NCBI GenBank assembly: GCA_963921795.1
Contig: OY997642.1
Coordinates: 37,924,840 to 37,988,839, forward strand
DNA from: Nannobrachium achirus
Taxonomy: Eukaryota; Chordata; Actinopteri; Myctophiformes; Myctophidae
DNA: 64,000 bases
Direction: 5' to 3'
The notes under the pieces were generated by a model. The model made no database searches. It saw nothing but the letters and a program-made list of their open reading frames with translations, and was not told the origin of the DNA. A program made the position numbers and the translations under genes. Positions 3,822 through 58,007 of this stretch are shown in pieces. The first letter of the stretch is position 1, and each line of letters starts with the position of its first letter.

Positions 3822-4274
3822 CAGGGGGTCCGGGACCCCTAGGTGGTCCTCAGAATTACTACAGGGGGGCCGCCAAGTCTTTGTGATAGGATCATTCTTT
3901 TAAATTAACAACTCGAACCCTTGAATCCCTATTCTCCACTATGGTGCCCGCTCCTAAGAATTCTGATTCTGATTATGAGAACATAAGCCAAAAATAGCAG
4001 ATCTACAAGCTCTCAACACCTCGCGCTGTGAGGCGTTGAGAGCTTGTAGATCGGCTATTTTCTGCAAATAGGTTTGGTGTAGAGTAGAGGTAAAAAAAGA
4101 GCAGACCAAGTACAGAGTGAAAGGTCAAGTTAACTAAAAACACAAATCCAACATAGACTGATGACAGTGTCAAACAAGTCAATGAATCTATCTATGAAAT
4201 CAATGAAAATCTACAACACACATTAATACAAAATGTGTATACTTCATCTCTCTCTCAGCTAAGGGGTCCTTGGC
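3822..4274. mobile_element. hAT-like element carrying the hairpin module
   Basis: The left end reads CAGGGGGTCCGGGACCCCT and the right end CTAAGGGGTCCTTGGCC. A second copy in opposite orientation lies at 52389-52762. The two share a segment with GGTGTAGAG, AGAGCAGAC and ACAGAGTGAAAGGTCAAG. This copy has a complete 70-nt hairpin at 3991-4061 that the other copy lacks. Confidence 0.6.
3991..4061. repeat. hairpin module, complete copy
   Basis: AATAGCAGATCTACAAGCTC is followed by a short GC-rich loop and the reverse complement GAGCTTGTAGATCGGCTATT. The arms pair almost perfectly over about 30 nt. It belongs to a module that recurs about a dozen times in the window (see findings). Confidence 0.85.
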
Positions 4275-7948: not shown

Positions 7949-8579
7949 TTAAAGGGATATTCCACTTTCAAAAACACTTTTTGTCATTGTATGGTCTAAT
8001 CAGGCTTGTATGAACACCCTGAACAGTTTTTAATTTTCTTCATTCAGTATTTAGATATTTGATGTAATAGTTACCAGGCCCGACACGCCCATGCCTCTCC
8101 CCACACACACTCATTGTAACTTCAAACTCCATTTTAACCATGATAGATTCATTAAAAATACCCATTATTTTTTCTGGTGACTCATAATACCCTCCTAGTA
8201 CGTGAGCAGGCCGTGTTTTTTCCATAACGTTTTTCATGTATTTTTTATATATTTTTATTGTATTTAATTTTTTCCATTTTCACAAAGAATTATTAAAAAT
8301 ACATGAAAAACGTTATGGAAAAAACACGGCCTGCTCACGTATTAGGAGGGTAGTTTGAGTCACCAGAAAAAATAATGGGTATTTTTAATGAATCTATCAT
8401 GGTTAAAATGGAGTTTGAAGTTACAATGAGTGTGTGTGGGGAGAGGCCCTGGGCCTGGAGGGCCAGATAACTTTTACATCAAATATCTAAATACTGAATG
8501 AAGAAAACTAAAAACTGTTCAGGGTGTTCTTAAACCATACAATGACAAAAAGTTTTTTGAAAGTGTAATATCCCTTTAA
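7949..8579. mobile_element. fold-back MITE, family A copy 2
   Basis: The element begins TTAAAGGGATATTCCACTTT and ends with AAGTGTAATATCCCTTTAA. The halves are near-complementary around a centre near 8260, sharing ACCCTGAACAG and GGTTAAAATGGAGTTTGAAG blocks in both orientations. The inner inverted repeat, including ATGAAAAACGTTATGG, is more perfect than in the copy at 1458-1991. It lies about 340 bp upstream of the pter start codon. Confidence 0.8.
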
Positions 8580-8916: not shown

Positions 8917-11900
8917 ATGTCAGATCTGAGTGGGAAGGTCCAGACAGTTCTGGGTCCGATGGACCCGGAGCTGCTGGGCCGCACCATGACCCACGAGCAC
9001 CTGACCATGAGCTTCGAGTGCTGCTTCTTCCCTCCGCCGGCAGGCGAGGAGGCGGTGGCTGAGAACCCCTTCCAGATGAAGCACATGTACTGGCTGAGAC
9101 AGAACCCCTACTGCAGCCACGAGAACCTGCTGCTCCAGCAGGAGACTGCGGCGGTGCGGGACGAGCTGCTGGAATACAGGAAGGCTGGAGGGGGCACCAT
9201 AGTGGAGAACACCACCACAGGTAGTAGGGGTGGGCGATATGGAAAAATACAATATCACCATATTTTCCCAAGCTGTATCACGATACACGATTTTATCACA
9301 ATTCTTTTTCACGTTGGTTTTTATGGTTATTTTTCAAGTTACTTGACAAAAACTAGACTCTCTGGCAGGGACGTGCTGGCCATTGGGAAAAGCGGGACAA
9401 CTCCCGAACGGCCGGTTCATTCCCGGCCGGTCCAGGCCGGCCATTCGGGGAAAAAAAAAAAAAATGTCGGCCTTCGTTCCATTTAGGGGGCTGGGCGGCC
9501 AACAAAGTAAATCGTCACTGTCGGGCAGAAACCTTGTATCTCCAAGTTTCAAATCTGTAATTTTTTTCGCAAAGCAAAGCCCTGCTTCATCATACAACGC
9601 CGTCGCACAAAAGTAGTGAAAACAGCAGATCTACAAGAACACAACCGCGAGGCGTTGTGTGCTTGTAGATCGGCTGTTTTCACTAGTTTAATTAATTTTT
9701 AAATGATAAATACAAAACAAACGGTTTTGGACATACAAGGTTTCCACCCGACAACAACGGAATATAACTCATGTAATTGGCCCACTGGCTTGTCACTTGT
9801 CATGATCTGAAATGGCAAATCTTTGAGTAGCAGCAGCGCTATAGAGAGAGATCTCTCTCTATAGCACGCAATGAGGGCCTCTCCAACTCTTTTTCCCGGG
9901 CTGAATCAGGGGCCCAGCACATCCCTGCTCACTGGGTTCCTTTTGGGAGGTCTAAATTGAACTTTACAAGTATGTAACTCTGACAGTATTCATTTGTATA
10001 CTGTCAGAGTTAAGTGGAGACCTTGATATTTTAAAGTTTGAGAACTGAAGATTTTGACCAAAATGCAGGTTTAATTGAATTTTGCAATGAATCTCTGTAT
10101 TAACGATTAAACAGGATTTTTTACAAGGCTCCCTCAATTGTATCACGATATATATGATACCTCTGAAAAGGCATATCGTGGAGACATTGTATCGTCTCAA
10201 CGATAATTATCACCATATCGCCCACCCCTAACCACAGGCATCGACCGTGACCTGCCCACCCTCAGGCAGCTGGCCAAGGACACCGGGGTCCACGTCATAG
10301 GAGGGGCTGGATACTATGTCGACTGCACCCACACGGACGCCACCAAGAAGATGACCGTGGAGAAGGTGGGGTTTGGTTGGAAATGTCTCTGTTGTGTCCA
10401 AAAGATGAAGGAAGATGTCACTCAAAGTTGCCTCAAAAGTTTTATTTGATTTTTTTAATTGATTGAATTTTCTCAACTTAAGTTTTGCATTTATACGCAG
10501 AATTTCGTACTTCTTACGTGACGTCTACTGGTTAATTTGAATGGGGTATGCACAGTGGTGCATTGGTGATTCAATGTTTGGTGGGTCGCTTATCTAGAGA
10601 CCTCACGCGCACGTTGCTCAACACCTACTATACAGGTCTATATGCATACAGGCTTGTTTCTTTGTTAAAACACCCTGTTGTGACAATAAAGCGTTGGCGA
10701 GGTGTGAACTTGGTTGGTTTTCGCATCAATGCATGTCAGTTTGCATGAGAGGCTCAGAAAAGATATGGGGCGGTGGGGGCGCGCGCGACCCCTGGCTAAT
10801 TCAACACTGAGTACGCACTACTCCATGCCGGTAGAGGAGTATAGAGATGTTGATGTTTCATGGAATATGGAATGGAAGAGTTTTATCAGAATTTCTCAGA
10901 TAAGTTAAACACAAACTCCTTTTTGCGTTTTGAATGTGTTTATCTGTACTGTAACCAGCTTTTTGTAAATGCAAGGTCAATAACAAGCATCATTGTTCTA
11001 TGTTAAAGGACCACTTATATACGGATATTGTGCCAACTGCATTATTGAACTTATAATACATGAGTTAAGGACAATTATACGAAGATAAAGTTGAAAATGA
11101 GTGAAATGCTCCTCTAAGTAACACTTTCTCTCGTGCCTCTCAGCTGACAGACATCATCGTCAGCGAGGTGCTTCACGGGGCAGACGGCACAGACATCCGC
11201 TGTGGCGTGATCGGAGAGATCGGCACGGGCTGGCCAATCACGGAGAGCGAGAAGAAGGTCCTCAGGGCCACAGCCCATGCCCAGGTCCAGCTGGGCTGCC
11301 CCGTCATCATCCATCCTGGTCGGGACCCCGCTGCCCCTGCCGAGATCCTCCGCATTCTCCACGAGGCCGGCGGTGACATAAGCAAAACTGTCATGTCACA
11401 CCTTGACAGGTTAGGTCTCTCTAGATACAGTGTTGGCTCAGTCACGTCTTCCCCGAAGTCTCAATTGATCATGAAAAGGAAGGCAGTAAACTGATGAAGG
11501 TCTTCGGACCAAAAAGGCGGGCTTTCCATTTAACATATTAAGACCTGAGGCCAATTCCAAAAATGGCTTCTAAATCCTTACATTATTATAACAATGCTAT
11601 ATCAGTGGTGGACCCCCGAAATTATATAAATATTTTGTCTGTGGACCTCCATGTCAAAATAGTTTGTTCCAGGGACTCCCAGAAGCATAGATTTGAAGAT
11701 TTTTGTTTGAAGATTGTTGTTGTTTTGTTTTTCGTCTGCGTTGAACAGGTTTTTGTCTTCTCTTACACACCTGTCACTCTTCCTGTTTTGTTGTCTTCCT
11801 TTCATACTACAGGACCATATTTGATGATGGTGAGCTACTTGAGTTTGCCAAGCTGGGGAGTTACTTGGAGTATGATCTGTTTGGGACAGAGATGCTGAAC

Positions 11901-12274
11901 TACCCATACAAGCTAGAGGTGGATATGCCAAGTGACAGCCAGAGGGTCAAGGCGTAAGTAACTGCACTTTTAAAAGGCGAGAAGACAACCAGATATCTCT
12001 TTACTATATTGGGTTAGCATTTGTGTGTTTTACGTGTTGGTCTGTTTCATGTTTCTTCTTCAGATTGGCGTTGCTGGTGAAGGAAGGCTACGAGGACAAG
12101 ATAGTGATCGCACACGATATTCACACCAAAAACCGTCTGACAAAATATGGAGGCCACGGCTACTCTCATATCCTGAAGAATATTGTCCCAAAGATGCTGA
12201 CCAGGGGTATATCCCAGAACCAGGTGGATAAGATACTCATCGACAACCCCAAACATTGGCTTACATTCAAATGA
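8917..12274 (+). CDS. pter: phosphotriesterase-related protein (N-acetyltaurine hydrolase), five coding exons, 349 aa
   Basis: Coding exons are 8917-9220, 10238-10365, 11144-11409, 11813-11953 and 12064-12274. All are GT-AG, and the phases give 349 residues, the usual PTER length. This is an amidohydrolase-superfamily TIM-barrel zinc enzyme. Vertebrate PTER has recently been described as the cytosolic hydrolase that splits N-acetyltaurine into taurine and acetate. The expected metal ligands are all visible: the HxH of THEH (His26, His28), Glu169 in GVIGEIG, His201 in VIIHPGR, His230 in VMSHLDR and Asp298 in IAHDIHTK. The protein ends NPKHWLTFK, close to the mammalian NPKQWLTFK. An acceptor (TTTTTCAG) at 8877-8884 shows that the start exon carries 32 nt of 5' UTR, so a further upstream non-coding exon exists but was not located. 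Intron 1 is wholly made of a transposon bounded by a target duplication (see findings). The active-site set is complete, so the enzyme should be functional. Confidence 0.97.
9366..9927. mobile_element. hAT-like element (CAGGGACGTGCTG type), nested copy
   Basis: The element begins CAGGGACGTGCTGG and ends CCAGCACATCCCTG. The flanks CTCTCTGG (9358-9365) and CTCACTGG (9928-9935) match at 7 of 8 bases. It is closely related to the copy at 13065-13557. It includes a GGCCGG-rich inverted block near 9410-9455 and the hairpin module at 9614-9685. Compared with the other copy it has an extra segment near 9765-9870 that contains a perfect 26-bp palindrome (9839-9864, GA-rich arms centred on AGATCT). Confidence 0.8.
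9614..9685. repeat. hairpin module inside nested hAT-like element
   Basis: AGTGAAAACAGCAGATCTAC is paired with GTAGATCGGCTGTTTTCACT around a CGCGAGGCG loop. The outer stem (AGTGAAAACAGC / GCTGTTTTCACT) is perfect. Confidence 0.85.
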
Positions 12275-13064: not shown

Positions 13065-13557
13065 CAGGGACGTGCTGACCATTGGGAAAAGCGGGACAAC
13101 TCCCGAACGGCCGGTTCATTCCCGGCCGGTCCAGGCCGGCCATTAGGAAAAATAAATAAAATAAAATGTCGGCCTTCGTTCCATTTTGGGGGCTTTGTGG
13201 CCAACAAAGTAAATCGTCACTGTCGGGCAGAAACCTCGTATCTCCAAGTTTCAAATTTATAAATTTTTTCGCAAAGCAAAGCCCTGCTTCATCATACAAG
13301 GCCGTCGCACAAAAGTAGTGAAAACAGCAGATCTACAAGCACACAACGCCTCGCGGCGCGAGGCGTTGTGTGCTTGTAGATCGGCTGTTTTCACTAGTTT
13401 AAATCATTTTTAAAATGATAAATACAAAACCAACGGTTTTGGACATATAAGGTTTCCACCCAACAACGACGAAATATAACTAAAAACAAAAAAAGAGAAA
13501 ATGAGGGCCTCTCCAACTCTTTTCCCCGGGCTGAATCAGGGGCCCAGCACGTCCCTG
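13065..13557. mobile_element. hAT-like element (CAGGGACGTGCTG type), copy 2
   Basis: The element begins CAGGGACGTGCTGACC and ends CAGCACGTCCCTG. Perfect 8-bp target duplications GTTGGTGG lie at 13057-13064 and 13558-13565. Its body matches the copy nested in pter intron 1 closely, including the GGCCGG block and the hairpin module (13317-13395). The intact duplication suggests a fairly recent insertion. No transposase is encoded. Confidence 0.9.
13317..13395. repeat. hairpin module inside hAT-like copy 2
   Basis: AGTGAAAACAGCAGATCTAC pairs with GTAGATCGGCTGTTTTCACT. The stem continues through CAAGCACACAACGCCTCGC and its complement around a 2-4 nt centre. The stem is nearly perfect for about 38 nt per arm. 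Confidence 0.9.
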
Positions 13558-14588: not shown

Positions 14589-15771
<1,183 letters not shown>

Positions 15772-27224: not shown

Positions 27225-30200
27225 TTAAGAATACTGCTCTGTGAACCTCCGGTGGAACTCCTTCACTTTGTCCAGGAGGATCTTGAGCTTGTCTGTTGGT
27301 GGCAAGATGGTCATCCTGTATGGGGGAAGGCCAGGAGAACAACGGTCAGGGTAAGCATACACAGTGGATTTGGAAACCTTTTATGCATCAAATGCTTTGA
27401 CGACAAAGCTTTGTGTTGGTGATGATGAAACGGTAATGCAGTCAACTGAAGGAGGAAAGTCCATTTCACGACTAGCATCAAGTCAGAGCCCTGCAACGGG
27501 TCGGGGCCCCGTGGGTACCCGACGGGTACCCGTGTTTGACGGGTGGAGACGGGCGGAATATATACTATTATAAATGTGCGGGTGCGGGGACGGCGGTGTG
27601 CGACTAAACACGGGCGGGTGACATTTTACTGTGAAACGTCACAAGAGCGCACACAGTGAGCAGCAGGACAGAACCACAGCCTGCATACAGCACTGTTTCC
27701 ACCTAAACGTCAAGTCACACACATGGAGCGGCGGCAGCCGGTGGAGCACACACCGACACACAACTGAATAAAGTGGCCGCGAGTGATCTGCTTGCCTAGC
27801 ACGATGTAGTTGCCCAAACTAAGATGATTTGGGCTTTAGCCTACATCTCATTAAAACTTAATATGCAAACCTACAAGTCTGAGGGACTGTGTTTGTTTTA
27901 TGTCATGATGATGGGGCGCAAGGAAGGATGACTTGCCTGCAATCAACTTGTCCAATTCAACCACATCCATTGCTGTGATCATAAAGGTGCATGATTGTAT
28001 AACATCCACGTGATTCCACGACTATTAGGAGTTCCGATCCCTTTTTTATTATGGTCACATGGGTCCGGTTTGGTTTAGATTAGCTCGGGCTGTTTATCAT
28101 CATAACAGTATAGCCTAAACAGTGATGAGCGAACCAAGACAGACAGACAGACAGCAAGTGGAGTTCCCTTCAGCTGTGAAAAGCTGGATATGTGCTTCGC
28201 CGTATGCCGGTGCGTGTCGAGCATAGCAGACATGCAAGCTCACAAAGCTGCAAGTTCCGACATGTTGTGAGCTTGTAGCTCTGATATTTTCAATGCGCGA
28301 CACCATCGTATGACAAATACAACTGCACAAAGCAGCGGAGGCAGAAAGCAGCAGCAGCAACAAGCTATTGTGACAGATCATGATACGATTTTAAATGATT
28401 ATGATTGGTTTTAAAGGTTGTTCTACTTTATCCAGGGCGCGGGTTGTCAAAATTGGACCCGTGCAGGGCTCTGCATCAAGGCAAGGCAGGGTCTTGCACA
28501 TACAGTAATAAGTGATTGGAAGTAAAGAACACCTTGCAGATACCAATAGATCAGTACACGATGTACCCAAGGTTGAAGTAAAGATTTTTTCAGTCTTAAT
28601 CATTAAACCTGGCCTTGTGAAATCATTGGCTGCGCTTTGAAAGGTCAGAACAAACAGGATCCAAGTTCATATTTGTTGAACTTTGAGCGCTGTGCATCAC
28701 TGAGGGTTAGCCATGCGGTGAGATAGGCCAACATCAGTGCTGTGGGATTTTGATGCTTGTCATGTGAAGGGGGCTTATTAAGAGGGCAGAGGCATGATAA
28801 TATTATAATTAATGCTCTAAGTCAGCAGTTCCTATCCTTTTCTGGATCAGGGCCCTCTTGAAAATCTTGACCACTGATTTTATTGCAATATTGTTTTACA
28901 GAGCATGTTTATTTTAATGATTAATTGATTGTGTTCTGGCTTGGATCAATGGGACTAATGTATACCATTTATCAGTAGAACAACAATTTCCAATTATGAC
29001 AGTTCTTTTTCCTACACATTATTATTATATTATCATTAGGTTTTGCCAGTTATTTGGGGGGGCCACTTGCGATAGCCCACAGGTTGATGGGTTGGGAATG
29101 GATGCACCCTGTACCTGAAGTGGTATGTTCCGTCCTTCTGGCCGAAGCCGCTCCCGGGGACAAGGCAGATCCCAGTCTCCTCTAGCATCTTCATACAGTA
29201 GAGCATGTCTGGAGCCTGGCCCATCGCCTGCACACAACAAACAAAACACACACAGACATGTCGTGAACCATCTCACAATGGTACTGGAGGTTCTCTTACC
29301 TACAGCAGGTAAACATCCCCTCATATCACCCTCCAGGCCTCCACTATCCAAACCCCAAAAATGCATAGGCTTATTAGTGCAGAGCAATTTAACACAGGAT
29401 TGACCCAGGCAGCATATCATTGGTCCAGGTATGTTACCCTTTTTAAGGCTACTCCTGCTTTCCAACCACATCTAATACATAACAACATGAGATAACATAA
29501 CAACTGAGAATGAGTTCAGACAGCATTTTTTCTTCATGTCGAATGAAAAATGTATTTGTATCAGCAACAATTGTGCAGTGAAAGGGAATTTGGTAACACA
29601 TATTGAGACAAACCACAATCATTTTACAAGGACACAGAGAGAAACAAGGAACTGAAATCTCAACCATACCGGTATGTAGGTCTATATTTGTACCGTAAAT
29701 GAAACTGGATCAAAGTGCTGTTGTCAGTATTTTAAAGGTCCCATATGTTTTGCATTATTGCTTGATTTGCACAATATTTTTTTCATAATTTATCTAGCCT
29801 TTATTATATTACACTACTGATTCATTCAGAGTTTGCATAATTCTAATTAGCAGCCTATAATAAGATGTAAAGGCGGAGGTCGTTTTCACTGGTCTGGTCT
29901 GGTGAAGGTAGATCTCACCAGCCTTGCTTGGAAAAGGTACATCTCTTGCCTGAAAGGTTTGCACACCCCTGACCTAAAGTGTAATTTTTGCACAAGTTTT
30001 TGATCATATCGTCACTCCAAGTTTCAAAATGTGTTTTTTTTTCGTAAAGCAAAGTCCTGCTTCACCGCACAAAACTATCGCCCAAAACTGGTGCGAGGCG
30101 TGTGCTTGTAGATCTGCTATTTTCACTATTTTAAATCGTTTTATTTTTTATTTTTTTATAAATGATGAATAAAAACGGTTTTGGACATACAAGGTTTCCA

Positions 30201-33200
30201 CCTGACAACAATGATATTTAATTAGCATTCCCATCCCAAGGCTGGATTGCCATGGGATTTGCTGTGCACCTTCATGCTCTCTGGAGAATTAACCCTCTTA
30301 ATTCATTGTGGTGACCCCCTGCCATTCCTCTAGCAAAGTGCTTCTCAAAGTGGGTCCTTGAGGCACTTTGGCTATTCAAAACTAGCCTTATCACGGCTAT
30401 CAGTGAGCTTGCATATCTGCTATTTTGGGGGGTATGTGGCCAAATACATCAATTTTAGTGTCCTTGACATGAAAAAGTTTGAGAACCACAACAACTGCTC
30501 TAGCACCACGCTTAGGCCAACATTTTCACTTGCACACAACATACAGTATCTCACAGTCTAAACGGCAGATTGCAGTGAAACTTGTTGACCACATTCATGC
30601 TCCGGCTCCCCACAGGATGAAGGGCTTTACTCTTGATTTGTCACAGTCATGGAGCATTATGAGTATGAGACTGACCCTGGCTTCTTTGATAGCCTTCTCA
30701 GGGATGGTGATGCGGGGGAATGAGTACATAGCACCCTGCACAGGGTTACAGCTGATCCCAGGCACTGTGTTTAGAATCTCCTGCGTCAGCTGGGCCTTCT
30801 CTGCCAAGACATTTAAGGTGTTGGTGCGCTCCTGGATAAGGAAAGAGAGATGGAGCAAAGAAGACAGAGAGAGAGGGTAGAATTTAGGGAAAGAGTAGTT
30901 CATCACAGAGAAAGAGAAAGCAATAAAGAAGAGTTAGGAACATTGCTAGTCTGTGATAAAGATACAACCTAATCACAGTGATAATTAAACATCGCTCAAC
31001 CGTTTTAACAGACTCCATTACTTAAGCCTCTCGCTGCTTTAATTTAAAGCAGCCTCTGTGAAGAATGATGACTGCAAGCATATTGTTGTTGTTGGTTGAA
31101 AATCTATCCAAAACTGTTACTTTTCAGGAAAGTAAAAAGGAATCTGTGCTCCTTTTAATACTTTTCATTGGTTAAATATTTATAAAATCCACAGACAGAC
31201 CCGTAGGGAATATGGAGATACAAGGTTTCAGCCTGACAGCAAGGATATATTATAACAAGGAGTTGTGGGAGTCTGATTGAATCACCTTGATGAAGTTCTC
31301 ATAGGAGGGTTCCCCAGGCTGGGGACAGTTGACCACCAGATCCATAAGGGCCTGTCCAGGAACAGGGGGACACAGACGGACTGACACGAGCTTGGTCAAC
31401 TGGGCCTTCACCTCAGCGTCCATGTTGATAATCTCCATGTAGCCGCCTCGGAATCCACACCTGGATAACAGGAAAAGATGCTCTGAAGTGAATAGGGGTG
31501 GCCAACGGTTAACCGTTACCGTTTAACCGATAAGAAATTGGTTACCGGTAAGTGCTAACGGTTAATGGTGACCGATAAAAAAAGAAAAACAAGAAAAGCA
31601 ACCAATGTGTCACACCAAAAGCCCCGTACACCAATATCTATGCAACATCAAGTCATCAACCATGCAACTATACGCGCTGTGGTCACACATTTGTGGAGGA
31701 CACCAATCTCTGTGTAACATCCATGCATGCATCTCCAATACAAATTTTGTGTTGTTAACTCTTTGAGTGCCAGCGCCCTCTAGGGGCCAAAGAATGCCAG
31801 CGCATCTCTCATAGGCGAGCGCTTTAGCTTCCAGGACTTCACCTTCCAGGACCTGACGTGCTCACGTTCATGCACGGCATGGAAATGTCCCGGATGAAGA
31901 TGCTAACAGAATGGCTATTCCCATTTTGTCACCTAAAAGATCATTTTTGGGCGATTTCGCCGTAAATAAACCTCGCGCCGCTTTCCTAAAACACAAAAAA
32001 GAGATATAAGCCTTTAAAGATGCGGTCTTTCATTGGATTAGGCGGAGATTGGCGATTGCGTTCGCAAATTACGGCCGGCCGGGAGGTTGCTAGCTTTCGG
32101 CTAGTAGCTAGAAAAATCAGGCCAGGTTTCAGAAGGCCTCTTATCATTTTATTCATTTAATTAAATAAAGCCGAACTACTTCGGGATCGGCACACTCGTG
32201 TACTCATCGGAAGCGGCGCCGAACATCGGGTGAACATTGGGGAGCTCAAAAATGTATTTTAAACCATTTTTAATGGAATATATCGTCGGACTGAGTAGAA
32301 CGGCTAGCGAGCCAGGACCACCCACGACTCTACAAGCAGCTCGGGGTAAGTGAATTAATAAAAAAAAGATTGTATTGGATTGAAATAAAGCCGAACTAGT
32401 TCGGGATCGGCACCAGATGAGTTAAAATGTTAAAATAAATATCCCAAATGTGTCAAACATTTTCTTTTTTGGGGTTGTTCTGCCTTCATTTGGATAGTAC
32501 AGTTGAGATAGACAGGAAACAGAAAAGGGGAGTGACACGCAGTGTCTATATGTGGTGTTTGCCATAAACACCACAGCCCCTGTCAATCATTTTCAAATAA
32601 AAAAAGCAGATCTACAAGCTGACAATGCACTCCATTGTGGTGTGAGCTTGTAGATTAAAGTGATAGCTTGGCTATGATTTTGACGCTATATCAACTAATT
32701 TAGCTGGGGACCTCCTGGAACCCCCACCCGGACCCCATTTGAGAACCACTACCATAAAAGCATTCATCCAACCTTTCAATAAATGGTTAAATGGCTCTTG
32801 GATCCCATGGTGTTTGAAAGTGCACAGCAGCTAGAGGCGCCATGGATCAGACTATATACAGCCTCTTTACTGCTACATAATAGCTGGTCTCACATAGCCA
32901 GACTCTCCGGCCCATTCTCCCCGCCCCGCAGATTGGGCAGAGCTGTGAAAGGTCTGGATATGCGAGACTACACGATAGCAAACGTATCAAATCCCCAAGT
33001 AGCCAACAATTTAAAAGATACTGGGTCAAACAGCATTTGAAAGATAATAGGAATGGTTTGTTTTTACCCTATTCAAAAGGTGTGGTTGATATGATGACAG
33101 AACCTCTTTTGTGTATTTTTTTTCTTCATATAATATAATATGTCAGAAAAAGGTTAGGGTTAAGTTAGTACACTGTGAGTGTCGTATTAGCTGCAGTAAT

Positions 33201-36200
33201 CAGGATAAATTAATGTGCAGTGCAACTACTGGATTACAGTAGTTTGATGACATGTCAAAGTAAGGTGACTTACTCTCCCATGTAACATTTGGAGGTGGAG
33301 TGGAAGGATGCCAGTTCCACTGTATCCGAGTATTCAGGTCCCATCTCAAACAATACCTTCTTAAAGGAGTGGAACTTGCAACCGTCAGCATACACATTAT
33401 CCTGGTATACCTGAATGACAGGAAAGACACATTTAACATAGTAGAACATGCTGTAAAACAGCGAAGTGGATAATAAAACCAATGTTACAGTATCTCTGTA
33501 GCCATTAAACGAAACGGGTTTCTTACATTGATGCTCCTACATCATGCAAGCACCAGTTAAAGTTACTTTCCATCCCTCATATACTGTGTGCACAGTGCAC
33601 ATCCCATAACCCACACACTGCACATCATTTTGGAGCTCATATCTTTGAACGGGTAAGGGCTAGTATACTAAACCAATGTTATTCATAGTGTTAGTTATTG
33701 ATGATTAAACCACTTAAGCCCTATATACTTACTTAGTCATACAACAAATAGCAAAACTAGCTGATTTACAAGCTCACAACGCATTGCAATGTGTTGTGAG
33801 CTTGTAGATCTTTTGGAAAAGATTTGACTACTGATAAATAAATGAATACATTTTTTTGACATGCACAAAATAGGGATGCCAGGATTGAAGTGGTTAAAGT
33901 ACCTCATCAGCCATTAGGAAGAGGCCCTCCTTTGCAGCAAATCGGATCACTTCCTCAATGCATTCCCTGGTCTGAACTTGACCTGCGTATAAAAGAAAGA
34001 TTATTCCATTATACCACGGAAAGTTCTATGAAATGATCAGGATGAATGATACATGATGACTCCTTTGCTGCCCTCTATTGACTCATAAGAGAAGTAGGCA
34101 TGTTTCTGTACTGCCCAATGTGCCCATACCCATCAATGAGAAGCAGTGAGTAGACTGGAAATGAAAGTGTCTCAAAACAAAACTGCACAGAAGGGGGAAA
34201 ATAAATGGATATTATGAAATTATCTATTCCAGACTCAAGAACAGAAAATGAAAAGGGATTTTTATTGAGTATCAAAATGAAACTACTGATGGAAAATATA
34301 TTTACAGAACAGATATGACTGAAACAGATCTGACTGAAACACAGATATTAAGTTACAAACTCCAGCCAGAAACCCATATCTTTGGACGTGCCAAACTTTT
34401 AGAAACACAGTGGTCAGAATGAAAATAACCTAACCTTTCCTAATGAGCATCAACCCCACACATGGACTACTTTAGGCAAGACTTTTCAAATCAGTCAGTG
34501 CTATAAAATGCATTTAAATATACTAACTATTACATAACTTTAAGAAAAGATTACCACAAAATAATATATCATGTGGGGGATTATCTATCACATATTGTAC
34601 CGAAAGGAATCGAATCCTCAAGAATCAAAAATATTATAGCAGGGGAAAATTGTATGATCATACATGATAACAATGAATACATTACAAAATGTATTATTAC
34701 AACGTGCAAAATCCGCTCTTGCCCCATTAAGGAGAGTTAGAAAATTAAAGTGACTCAAAACAAAACCGCACAGATGGGAAATCTTTATGGATATTATGAA
34801 ATTGTCCATATGAGTATCAAAACAAAACTACTGATGGGAAATATATTTACGGAGAACAGCTGATAATGCCTGAAACACAGAAGTTAATGAATTACAAAAC
34901 CCAAAGAAACCATATCATAGGACATGCTAAAGTAAACTGTTAGATGTAAAAATTATATATTTATCTCATAGGGTATAGAGATAGACAGTCAGCGGGCTAA
35001 ATATGTAAGGCTTTAATGCCAGAAATAGTAGCGATAATTTGAGACAATACTGTGTGACATGATGAAGCTTACCGGTGGGGTTCCCAGGGTTGATGACGCA
35101 GAGGGCCCGCGGGTTGCAGTGGCGTCTGGCTTCCTCCAGGGCGCGCTCCAGCTCGCTGAGGTCCATACTCCAGCACTTGTCCTCATTCAGGTAGTAGTTG
35201 ATCTGCACTGCACCCAGTTCAGCCAGGGCAGCCGAGTACAGCGGGTACTGGGGGATGGAGATCATCACACCTGTGCGTGTCTCGCCCTCACCACACACCA
35301 GTAGCTTTAGCATGGTCTGAGACAGACGGACAGGGGAACCCAAATTAGTGAGAGATCGGCACAATAGTTTTAAAGGAGTAGTTCATCCCCAAAGTGTAAT
35401 ATTTTCTATTGCTTACTACTCACGCCATGGAGATTTGAGTTCAAAACATTTTTTTTTGTATTTGTCGCATTCCTAAGGCAAAAGATTTATTATAGTAAAT
35501 TTACCCACATTGATTCCGGATGAGGACACAAATGGGTCCCCATCCGGAATCAATGGGGGTACATTTATTCTATTCAAATTATTGTTTAAGGAATGCAACA
35601 AAAAACTAAAAATATTCTTGAACTCAAGTCTCCATGGTGTGAGTATAGAAGGAAAAAAAATCATTTTGGGGGTGAACTACTCCTTTTAGTTATATGCCAA
35701 TAAACCCTGTAAATAATAAAAGTGTACAAGGCATGGATTTATCACATATCAAACTGCATTTCAAACAAAATAAAAAAAATCAACTCAAATATAATTTCAT
35801 ATAAAAGAGCTTTTTTTGTACCACAATGCCATCGCTAGCCCCTGTGGTGAGGTAGATGTTGTCCGGATCACAGGGAATGCCACCGTCCCTATGCTCAATG
35901 TAGCTGGCCACATCCTGACGCACACAATCTATGCCCTGGCTGGCACTGTAGGCACCTGAGGGGGACAGAGGGAGATGTTTGCAGAGATTATGACAAGTCA
36001 CTTACTCATACTGCAGTGCTACAGTTTATAATCCTACATTTGACAAGTGAGTTCAAAATGAGTTCCCTCAATAGTTTCCAATGCTTTTTTACTATAGCGT
36101 TTTCTTTTGTACATGCAGAGAACAAGATCTGTTGTTCACATAGGACTAAGAGAGGTTTTCTTTTTTTTCTATGACATAGTGTAATTTGCACCAATTAATA

Positions 36201-48763: not shown

Positions 48764-50083
48764 TTAAAACCCAGAGCCACCAGTGACAGCTGAGAGGGTC
48801 TGTGTGGCTACAGAGCGCAGGCCAAAGGTGGGTACTGAGAGAGGTGTGAGCAGGAACAGCTGGTGCTGTAGTGTCTGCATACTGTAGCATTTACACTCCT
48901 CTGTGATTAGGTAGCACTGCAGTGGCTGGTGGGAGAAGCCATGGGCAAACTCTTCATGTAGAGCGTTTCCTCTCTGGGCTTTCTCTTCGGGGGAAACACA
49001 CGGGGTCTCCTCCTGGCTGAAGTAGCGTGCGGTGGTGAAGGTGAAGAACAGCCTCAGAAGTTCCCAGCAGCGGGCTTTGGAGGGCAAAGGCGATTCACTG
49101 GATGGAGGGTTAGCAGAGGCCTGTACACAGGAGACAGAGCGCCGTGTTTCACGGTTGATGACAATGAGTGCCAGGACGTCGGGGCGGAGGGATACAGAGC
49201 TTGGCAAGCAGCGCTCGCCGACAGCCAGGCAACTTCTCAGTGTCTCCACCAGAGGAGACCAGAAATGCCCAACCAGCTCCCTCTCAGCCCTGTGCAGCGA
49301 GGGAGTGGGGCCACACAGCACGCACACATCGACACCTAAAAGCAGCTGGAAGCGGAGCAGGCGGTGGGCCACGGTGGGGCTGCCATGGGGAAGAAATACA
49401 GGGTAGTCACAAGAGGCAGATCCAGACATGGAGAGAAACCGCAGCAGAGCAGATAGTAGCACTACTTCCTGTGGTGCCAGGAGCCACCACTTCTCTGTGG
49501 CAACGGCAATGCGCCCATGGACCATGAGGCATCCAAACTCGCTGTCTGCAGCCTGTGTGAAGTTCTCCAGAGCCTCCTGTAGCAGGGCAGGGTTAGGAGG
49601 TAGTAGGCAGTCAGCACAGTGCGTCAGACTCCCCATAATGCCCTCCTGCCTCCCCTCCAATAGTTGATCGATGAGGCCAAAGCAGGAACGGAGGTCCCTC
49701 TTCAGCCGCTCCACATTCCTGATGTTCACCAGCTCATCCTGACCCAGAACCAGCACCATGCAGCTCCACACGTTCTCCAACAGCCGACGCCAATGGAGAT
49801 CCTCCTCCTCCTTACTGTCAAGTCCTCTGCCTCCTCCAAGTTGCTGTCCCTTCACCGCAATAAGTATCACACTATCATGGAACACTCTCCACACAACTTT
49901 ACCTCCATGGTCAGTCTCACAGCTGGACAATACCACGCCCTGTCCAACTCCAAACATATGAACGCCATTCAGAGAACCAATGACGGAGAAGGGAAGCTGT
50001 TTAGAGGCTCCTCGGGTAAAAAGTGGAACCCCGCTGTTGGCTGTGAGGCAGAGAAGCTGCACTGATCCATCCTGTAGCATCAT
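48764..50083 (-). CDS. fuz: Fuzzy planar cell polarity protein, single exon, 439 aa
   Basis: One uninterrupted frame encodes 439 residues (human FUZ is 418). The start is the ATG at 50083 (MMLQDGSVQLLCLTANSGVP); the frame stays open a little further upstream, but only with non-ATG codons. Fuz is a longin-domain CPLANE subunit that works with Intu and Wdpcp at the ciliary base, recruits intraflagellar-transport proteins and acts in planar cell polarity and Hedgehog signalling. Diagnostic stretches are QLPFSVIGSLNGVHMFG, VWRVFHDSVILI, ELVNIRNVERLKRDLRSCF, DYPVFLPHGSPTVAHRLL, VCVLCGPTPSL and the C-terminal FGLRSVATQTL. No internal stops and the conserved length argue for a working gene. The lack of introns contrasts with the many-exon mammalian gene. 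Confidence 0.95.
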   Translation of the reverse strand: MMLQDGSVQLLCLTANSGVPLFTRGASKQLPFSVIGSLNGVHMFGVGQGVVLSSCETDHGGKVVWRVFHDSVILIAVKGQQLGGGRGLDSKEEEDLHWRRLLENVWSCMVLVLGQDELVNIRNVERLKRDLRSCFGLIDQLLEGRQEGIMGSLTHCADCLLPPNPALLQEALENFTQAADSEFGCLMVHGRIAVATEKWWLLAPQEVVLLSALLRFLSMSGSASCDYPVFLPHGSPTVAHRLLRFQLLLGVDVCVLCGPTPSLHRAERELVGHFWSPLVETLRSCLAVGERCLPSSVSLRPDVLALIVINRETRRSVSCVQASANPPSSESPLPSKARCWELLRLFFTFTTARYFSQEETPCVSPEEKAQRGNALHEEFAHGFSHQPLQCYLITEECKCYSMQTLQHQLFLLTPLSVPTFGLRSVATQTLSAVTGGSGF

Positions 50084-51300
50084 CCTGCTAGTGGACGTCA
50101 AACTGTTGCTAACGTTAGATTATCTGCTTCCGACGTTATCGGGATACGTAACGCCTAGCTAATAACGTTAGCTAAATGATAGGAACACCATTCAGATTTG
50201 TTTACGAGCATCGTGTCCTTACTTACCAGACGTCAAGTATACAGATGAGACACATGTCATTGGCTACAACGTCTGTACATTATGTTGGAAATTGCACAAC
50301 TTCTGCGTCCATGGTGCTACACGGAGCAGGCTGGACGTTCAATTTAGTGCTACTTTTTGCAGGCTCATTTATTTTCTAAGCTAAAGTTAACTATATCTTT
50401 CTCCGCGAAAGGATACAAATAGCGGTTTCCACAGCAACAGCAATGCAGCAACTCCATGAGCAACTCAGTCCCATTCAAGTTTTAACATTTTGTTTTTTTC
50501 CGGTTTACTTAAATCTCGCGAGAAGTCGAGAACCAATCACATGCCCACCATACAACTCACGTGACTGATTTATTTGTACACTGCAAGTTACGGCCTATAA
50601 ATAAAGCTTTTATGATATGAGGATTGAAGACTAATTTCCAAGGCGAAGGGTGGGAAGAGAAATGAAGTGCAAATGAACTGGGAAGAAAAAGTAATATTCT
50701 AATTTGACTTTAATAGAAATACAAATTTTATAGTTACTCAATTTGATTACTTCATCTTTACTTAGAATTAAAGGTATTTTAACGCTATATTAAAAACGTT
50801 TTACATTACCTTTGTGTATAAAATGTGCTATAAACGTCCCTCGCCAAGAATATCATTGTAGCTACTTAAGATAAGATATATAAGAATATCCTTGTAGAAG
50901 ATGATTAGTGTTCACTTCAAAATTACTCATGTACAAAGGTTCTAGCGGCTAGAATCTAGCCTATAGATCTACTAGGTTGAAGTTGAACTAATGATGAAAG
51001 GATCAATATGGTATTTTGACATAACAGCCTATCCCTCTCTGATTGAGTGACGCTTCAATATGTGGTGGCAATCTTTTCAGTAAGCTTTCTCAATGTCTGA
51101 AATTTGAAAAAGTTTCAAAACAAACTTGAACGGAATATCCTCCAGATGGTGTCATAACACCATAGGCCTACTTCTACTTGTAGGCTACTCAAAATATAGT
51201 AGTCTAGTACTATAATTATTTACAAAAGTACAACATAAGACTTCTATCTAATCTATACTAATCCAAGTACCTGGAAAAAAGCTACTCAATTACTTTCCTA
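50084..51300. other. fuz promoter side and spacer to gng5
   Basis: The first 100 bp upstream of fuz carry TAACGTTAG and AACGTTAGCTA repeats and several CpGs, plausible promoter sequence. CTCGCGAGAAG near 50514-50523 is a TCTCGCGAGA-type element, a ZBTB33/ETS-like core promoter motif seen at housekeeping genes; its use here is inferred. The rest is AT-rich without recognised features. Confidence 0.4.
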
Positions 51301-57109: not shown

Positions 57110-57141
<32 letters not shown>

Positions 57142-57514
57142 TGATTGAACGCAAGTCTCCATGGCATGAGTAATCAATAGGGAAAAAAAAAGAACAACAT
57201 TTTGGGGTGAACTACTCCTTTAAGCCATAACAACATCCTCATTCATTTCATTATCTGAGAAAAAAAGAAAACATTGTACCTTCTGTCTGGTAGGAGTTTT
57301 AGTGTGCGGTAAAGTTCATTTGTGGAAGGAATGCCACCAGGAGTTCAATAATATTTTTTGTTCTTTGTCATATTCCTAAGACAAAAATGTGATTACAATA
57401 GATTTACCCCATTGATTCCGTAGGGGACCCAAATGCATTCGGGTCCCCATCTGGAATCATGGGGGTAAATTTACTATAATCAAACTTTTGTCTTAGGAAT
57501 GTGACAAAATACAA

Positions 57515-57576
<62 letters not shown>

Positions 57577-57961
57577 TGATTGAACGCAAGTCTCCATGGC
57601 ATGAGTAATCAATAGGGAAAAAAAAGAACAACATTTTGGGGTGAACTACTCCTTTAAGCCATAACAACATCCTCATTCATTTCATTATCTGAGAAAAAAA
57701 GAAAACATTGTACCTTCTGTCTGGTAGGAGTTTTAGTGTGCGGTAAAGTTCATTTGTGGAAGGAATGCCACCAGGAGTTCAATAATATTTTTTGTTCTTT
57801 GTCATATTCCTAAGACAAAAATGTGATTACAATAGATTTACCCCATTGATTCCGTAGGGGACCCAAATGCATTCGGGTCCCCATCTGGAATCATGGGGGT
57901 AAATTTACTATAATCAAACTTTTGTCTTAGGAATGTGACAAAATACAAAAAAAAATAAAAT

Positions 57962-58007
<46 letters not shown>

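Follow-up and report, generated by a model that had tools for sequence, protein, structure and literature searches.

The first intron of pter in the fish Nannobrachium achirus very likely represents a lineage-specific intron gain, in which a hAT-like non-autonomous DNA element inserted into a coding exon and became a precise new intron, as far as the genomic sequence and its homologues can tell. The window, i.e., the whole stretch of DNA that was analyzed, comprises 64,000 nt (GCA_963921795.1, OY997642.1, positions 37,924,840-37,988,839, forward strand). The origin of new introns is an old question, and vertebrates have often been regarded as nearly closed to intron gain. In pter, an ancestral exon without interruption, the inserted transposon with its target duplication and the intron can all be seen side by side, which renders the event readable in full.

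According to the proposed course of events, the first coding exon of pter would have received, in the lineage of this fish, an element of about 436 bp with the ends TAGGGGTGGGCGATATGG, and the 8-bp target ACCACAGG would have been duplicated in the process. With a target ending in AGG and an element starting with TA, the left junction would have become CAG/GTA (slash, splice site), a GT donor that is half host and half element, its G being host-derived and its T element-derived. The right copy of the duplication would provide the acceptor CAG/G behind the C-rich stretch CGCCCACCCCTA, which simply mirrors the G-rich left terminus as its complement, and the same cut point in both copies would restore the pre-insertion message exactly. 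Further changes, in no fixed order, would have been the gain of three bases (TAG) on the left and the nesting of a second hAT-like element inside the first. All 8-bp targets with a final AGG would be suitable for this terminus; a random 8-bp site ends in AGG once in 64 cases, which may make this terminus an unusually apt intron-maker. From the sequence comparison, it appears almost certain that a transposon did insert into an ancestral exon and that this insertion is specific to the lineage.

The pter gene and its ancestral exon

All coding exons of pter lie on the forward strand. Exon 1 (8917-9220), running from the ATG to the first base of codon 102, matches a phosphotriesterase-related protein in the PDB (E 1.3e-13), and exon 2 (10238-10365) ends with codon 144; these two are the left and the right half of the ancestral single exon. 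The joined-exon translation further includes exon 3 (11144-11409), exon 4 (11813-11953) and exon 5 with the stop codon (12064-12274). Dropping 9221-10237 and joining the five exons yields an intact frame of 349 codons encoding PTER, an N-acetyltaurine hydrolase of 349 aa, and the intron lies after the first base of codon 102, within the motif NTTTGI. The best full-length protein match reaches 91% identity, with records named phosphotriesterase-related protein or N-acetyltaurine hydrolase, and therefore the window's own product is absent from the database. A tree was built from the window, 35 of the 104 exon-level matches and 55 of the 120 listed full-length matches. Therein, the window joins Lampris incognitus with a support of 0.67, and one node deeper the clade comprises 71 of the 91 tips (support 0.76). 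The L. incognitus protein is likewise the nearest in the comparison (90.5% over 349 aa). Just upstream of exon 1, the window features a large, near-perfect palindrome (8009-8532), probably a fold-back element. One pair of its arms measures 164 nt, with 96% complementarity and a spacing of 27 nt, and another measures 83 nt (90% complementary).

The ancestral state was read from homologues of the joined first two exons (144 residues), which matched 104 of 5.8 billion proteins at E up to 1e-10, comprising 98 vertebrate-type and six bacterial-type matches (motif VDATT). The first-pass annotation had predicted that the junction at codon 101/102 is uninterrupted in outgroups. This was indeed found, as 96 of the 98 vertebrate-type homologues, counted here and below as sequence records and not as distinct species, are ungapped through codons 87-117; the remaining two alignments end at query positions 111 and 103. 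Right after codon 144, 81 of the 96 diverge abruptly with valine (GTN) as the first foreign residue, and among the other 15, two diverge with another residue, four end at 144, six run into exon 3 and three stop before 144. The valine corresponds to genomic DNA read into a GT donor, and thus codons 1-144 form one exon. This single-exon state applies to many sequences with up to 86% identity, and named records with the GTN tail include Acipenser sinensis (flagged UNVERIFIED_CONTAM in the source), Polypterus senegalus and Chiloscyllium plagiosum. The single-exon state is also in line with records that carry bird and mammal names, although these are gene models. The main source label, 'lgn', presumably stands for Logan assemblies of public reads. 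The insert itself occurs in none of the 104 homologue matches, and no candidate for a further carrier emerged when the read-through frame was used as the query.

These records bear directly on the idea of an ancient intron at this position which was later filled by a transposon, so that the match of the two ACCACAGG copies would reflect chance plus splice consensus. CAG/G is expected at both ends of any U2 intron, which leaves four of the eight bases as independent evidence. Nevertheless, with an uninterrupted exon in 96 of 98 vertebrate-type homologues, including records named shark, bichir and sturgeon, and with element ends that adjoin the duplication, leaving only 3 nt between and no old intron sequence, such an origin is exceedingly improbable; it is largely refuted by the single exon of the relatives. 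Creation of the intron by a transposon insertion, the central claim of the first-pass annotation, is instead strongly supported by the uninterrupted junction together with the inverted repeats and the target duplication.

Structure of the insert

Between 9214 and 10238, ACCACAGG is followed by TAG and the 18-bp TAGGGGTGGGCGATATGG; after an interior of 970 bases come the exact reverse complement of these 18 bp and again ACCACAGG. The two 8-bp copies had been placed at 9214-9221 and 10231-10238 before and were found there on the forward strand, with the donor cut after 9220 (CAG/GTAGTA) in the left copy and the acceptor cut after 10237 (CAG/G) in the right one. Likewise, the hAT-like left end and its reverse complement at the right could be recovered as a perfect 18-bp pair, the left terminal inverted repeat of the outer element at 9225-9242 (forward strand) and the right one at 10213-10230 (reverse strand), the forward strand of which reads the C-rich CGCCCACCCCTA ahead of the acceptor. 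The right duplication copy abuts its inverted repeat directly, and the left copy is separated from the repeat by an extra TAG (9222-9224, forward strand) which the right end lacks. This TAG is probably a later tandem duplication of the first three bases of the element.

Elements of the hAT superfamily duplicate 8 bp of their target, and their terminal inverted repeats are typically short and start with C/TAGGG. In the pter insert, an 8-bp target duplication is present in the form of ACCACAGG twice, with a 3-nt offset on the left, and the inverted repeats of the outer element form a perfect pair of 18 bp with hAT-like ends. As no other copy was found, the outer element is tentatively assigned to hAT by the 8-bp duplication and the termini. 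In the 64-kb window, a second outer-element copy was missing apart from the element's own two ends, and TAGGGGTGGGCGATATGG with up to three mismatches matched nowhere else; two such matches occurred in none of 100 shuffles. An exact 18-mer scan of viral contigs for the terminus gave no match, and a 17-mer was found at 19 loci of prokaryote genomes, against about 30 expected by chance in 257 billion bases at uniform composition, i.e., a number of the order of chance.

ACCACAGG alone is not rare, as it occurs five times in the window vs. a mean of 2.18 over 100 shuffles, six of which reached at least five. Short direct repeats near intron borders were moreover reported for all 213 introns examined in one study (PMC11782384, as far as its available text goes), and such repeats alone are consequently not diagnostic. 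The case is carried by the direct repeat occurring jointly with terminal repeats that are complete and with an ancestral exon that is uninterrupted. The window was also scanned for a joint pattern, a 12-bp inverted repeat 150-3000 bp apart plus an identical 8-bp direct repeat within 3 bases, which is present at the pter insert, at 13065-13557 and otherwise solely from 57117 onward; the hits listed from there on are all AT microsatellite, and the left ends of the further hits fall into 57120-57554. In 20 dinucleotide shuffles, the pattern came up once in total. The long AT-repeat tracts at 57117-57994 are able to form inverted repeats. Elsewhere in the window, open frames on the reverse strand at 15088-15699, 34966-35364 and 48764-50101 are, from reading their translations, taken to be C1q-like, alanine-aminotransferase-like and MON1-like, respectively.

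The second hAT-like element inside the new intron, which had also been proposed, is real. It spans 562 bp (9366-9927, forward strand) between the flanks CTCTCTGG (9358-9365) and CTCACTGG (9928-9935), which are identical at seven of eight positions. A sibling of this nested element, with exact 8-bp GTTGGTGG flanks, is located at 13065-13557, about 0.8 kb past the end of the pter coding sequence. An alignment of the two that includes the flanks shows 33 differences over 503 bases (6.6%). In the nested element, a hairpin with 36-nt arms (92% complementary) was observed at 9610-9689, parts of which recur in the window, e.g., near 3991-4062 and 30015-30211. The description of the intron as wholly a hAT-like element thus stands with regard to the inverted repeats and the duplication and needs correction for the extra TAG on the left and for the nested element, which makes up 562 of the 1,017 intron bases and leaves about 436 bp for the outer element.

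The 3-nt asymmetry at the left end would also suit a double-strand-break repair that captured a transposon copy, with the 8-bp repeat as a filled staggered break. This reading is very improbable in view of the presence of both complete terminal inverted repeats, of a repeat length equal to the 8 bp of hAT elements and of the likewise exact 8-bp duplication around the relative of the nested element at 13065-13557.

Splice sites, gene constraint and age

The intron ends GTAGTA...CCACAG conform to GT-AG as in a U2 spliceosomal intron. The predicted donor CAG/GTAGTA departs from the consensus at +4 to +6, and on the donor matrix applied it scores 1.26 bits compared with 4.88 bits without the extra TAG, so that the donor is weakened by the additional bases at the left end. 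With the same matrix, an alternative in-frame donor 9 nt downstream (GGG/GTGGGC, 9230-9231, forward strand), the use of which would add three residues, scores 0.99 bits and a further in-frame GT at 9224 scores -1.26 bits. The other three donors of the gene reach 4.44, 2.73 and 0.52 bits on this matrix, and the predicted donor accordingly falls within the range of the gene.

At the 3' end, the pyrimidine content ahead of the acceptor is 71% (12/17) vs. 76-88% in the three other coding introns of the gene. The statement that the element supplies a C-rich tract before the acceptor applies in that the tract is the forward strand of the right repeat, with a pyrimidine share below that of the other introns. 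The sole perfect yTnAy within 50 nt is a CTAAC across the border of element and duplication. Its A precedes the predicted acceptor by 7 nt and a cryptic CAG at 10265 by 35 nt, so that the motif is better placed for this second, frame-shifting acceptor. As a control, the scan for perfect motifs found no yTnAy at one of the three other acceptors of the gene (intron 2) either. Between 10183 and the predicted acceptor no other AG occurs, which would favor the predicted acceptor with a degenerate branch site further up. The coding sequence ACCTGCCCACCCTCAGGCAG in exon 2 (10250-10269) is acceptor-like, and it is possible that it turned into a cryptic competitor once an intron had arisen 5' of it. 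In addition, the two 18-bp termini could pair with each other (-38.6 kcal/mol). Such a duplex would take up the donor positions from +5 along with the C-rich tract, and it might hide both or else, as proposed for fungal stwintrons (PMC12403724), bring the splice sites together.

Some of these features would also fit an intron that is spliced at other sites, i.e., the donor at 9230 with three added residues, or an acceptor at 10265 or 10269, used exclusively or besides the exact sites. The nearly equal scores of the two donors on this matrix (0.99 vs. 1.26 bits) and the distance of CTAAC to the CAG at 10265 speak for such use. Nevertheless, it is unlikely, since both of these acceptors shift the frame, at odds with a conserved gene, and the added residues would fall in NTTTGI, a motif exactly common to 88 of the 113 listed relatives; it overlaps with the best explanation where other sites yield only minor isoforms. 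Use of exactly the sites at 9220/10238 by the spliceosome is probable, and removal of the insert by splicing is inferred because the frame is intact and the near-invariant residues are conserved. The claim that splicing rebuilds the pre-insertion frame agrees with the predicted 349-codon frame obtained by joining 9220 and 10238, with a donor that is weaker and more ambiguous than had been implied.

Constraint on the gene was assessed with 113 of the 120 listed full-length relatives, after seven had been dropped for their length. Among 148 near-invariant positions, the window protein has one change (median of the relatives 1, range 0-10, n = 113), and it shows no indel column against the majority of these listed relatives. 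A neutral divergence of 3% was derived as about half of the 6.6% difference between the nested element and its sibling, which assumes a shared master and, for the dating, that nesting came after the pter insertion. At 3%, simulated neutral decay with assumed indel and transition rates left the frame intact in about 2% of cases, and one change or fewer at near-invariant positions occurred in none of 1,000 runs. At 1%, the frame stayed intact in 31%, and P for at most one near-invariant change was 0.21, so that a very recent insertion in a dead gene stays compatible with the data. The pter gene is, from its sequence, in all likelihood functional.

A recent or segregating gene-breaking insertion, in which the element is not cleanly spliced and the allele or the gene is null, would agree with the weak donor, the awkward branch motif and the stable terminal duplex, and if the insertion were younger than about 1% divergence, the intact frame would be unsurprising. 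However, the preserved frame and near-invariant residues oppose it, and the nested element, about 6.6% from its sibling and with a mismatch at one of eight positions in its duplication, suggests some age if it nested after the insertion. A null allele is accordingly quite unlikely, and a spliced intron in a working gene is the preferred reading.

Comparison with known systems

In maize, work of Giroux and colleagues from 1994 reportedly described an exonic Ds element (hAT superfamily) that is spliced at or near its 8-bp duplication, and the Ds-created intron is said to constitute a mutant allele. In contrast to this Ds intron, the pter insert sits in an intact vertebrate gene. Ds is presumably also the element behind the Zea entry in a 2012 list of transposon-made introns. 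The available text of this review names Oryza, Drosophila, Oikopleura and Zea (PMC3443670). It also presents a proto-splice model with AGGT in the target; the pter insert resembles it in the duplicated AG/G serving as donor and acceptor and in the unchanged coding sequence, whereas in pter the target holds AGG and the T comes from the first base of the element (PMC3443670). Fungal stwintrons with near-terminal inverted repeats, as outlined in the consulted part of PMC12403724, share complementary intron ends that could bring the splice sites together, but they integrate seamlessly without a target duplication, unlike the pter insert.

With regard to vertebrates, the accessible sections of PMC3257199 summarize earlier large-scale studies as finding gain extremely rare and then argue for mammalian gains, the genes studied being themselves derived from transposons; citing this work, PMC3899998 states in its available part that transposon-mediated insertions are thought to be responsible for much of mammalian intron gain. 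Intron insertions in vertebrate coding exons are likewise described for the SOCS family, in a text that does not contain the word 'transposable' (PMC6368001). Literature matches to the terminal sequence of the outer element and to the exon structure of PTER were, within the portions seen, unrelated by title. The first-pass annotation had called this type of intron gain rarely documented in vertebrates. This agrees with the partial texts consulted, mostly from outside subscription journals, in which no vertebrate precedent was recognized, and with the absence of an introner pattern in vertebrates (PMC9860276). De novo introns in vertebrates, reported for mammals and humans, connect pter to PMC3257199, PMC12124190 and PMC3899998; however, as far as their available text extends, these present no intron made wholly of one element plus a target duplication, and pter has both.

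The closest parallel concerns introners, on which Huff et al. are cited in the excerpted PMC12403724. According to the accessible portion of Gozashti et al. (2022; PMC9860276), introner families were kept if at least four similar introns occurred per genome, both splice sites are drawn wholly or partly from the target duplication, and vertebrates are named among the groups without a pattern of introner gain. The introners as described there and the pter insert are both non-autonomous DNA elements that carry inverted repeats and are flanked by a target duplication; in both, the splice sites stem partly from this duplication and the message length is unchanged. As a mechanism, the term introner-type proposed before is therefore appropriate, with inverted repeats, target duplication and splice sites recruited from it, for one instance. 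Unlike introners, the pter insert is, as seen within the 64-kb window, a single case in a vertebrate host and not a family of similar introns. It is rather doubtful that this hAT-like family, pre-adapted by its TA tip and G-rich start, made a set of introns genome-wide and would thus be the first vertebrate introner family. The underlying rule, an element tip TA plus a target AGG, is simple and searchable across fish genomes. Taken together with the sources in their available extent, the mechanism is not new and a precedent exists for the superfamily; what is unusual is a vertebrate example with every component preserved.
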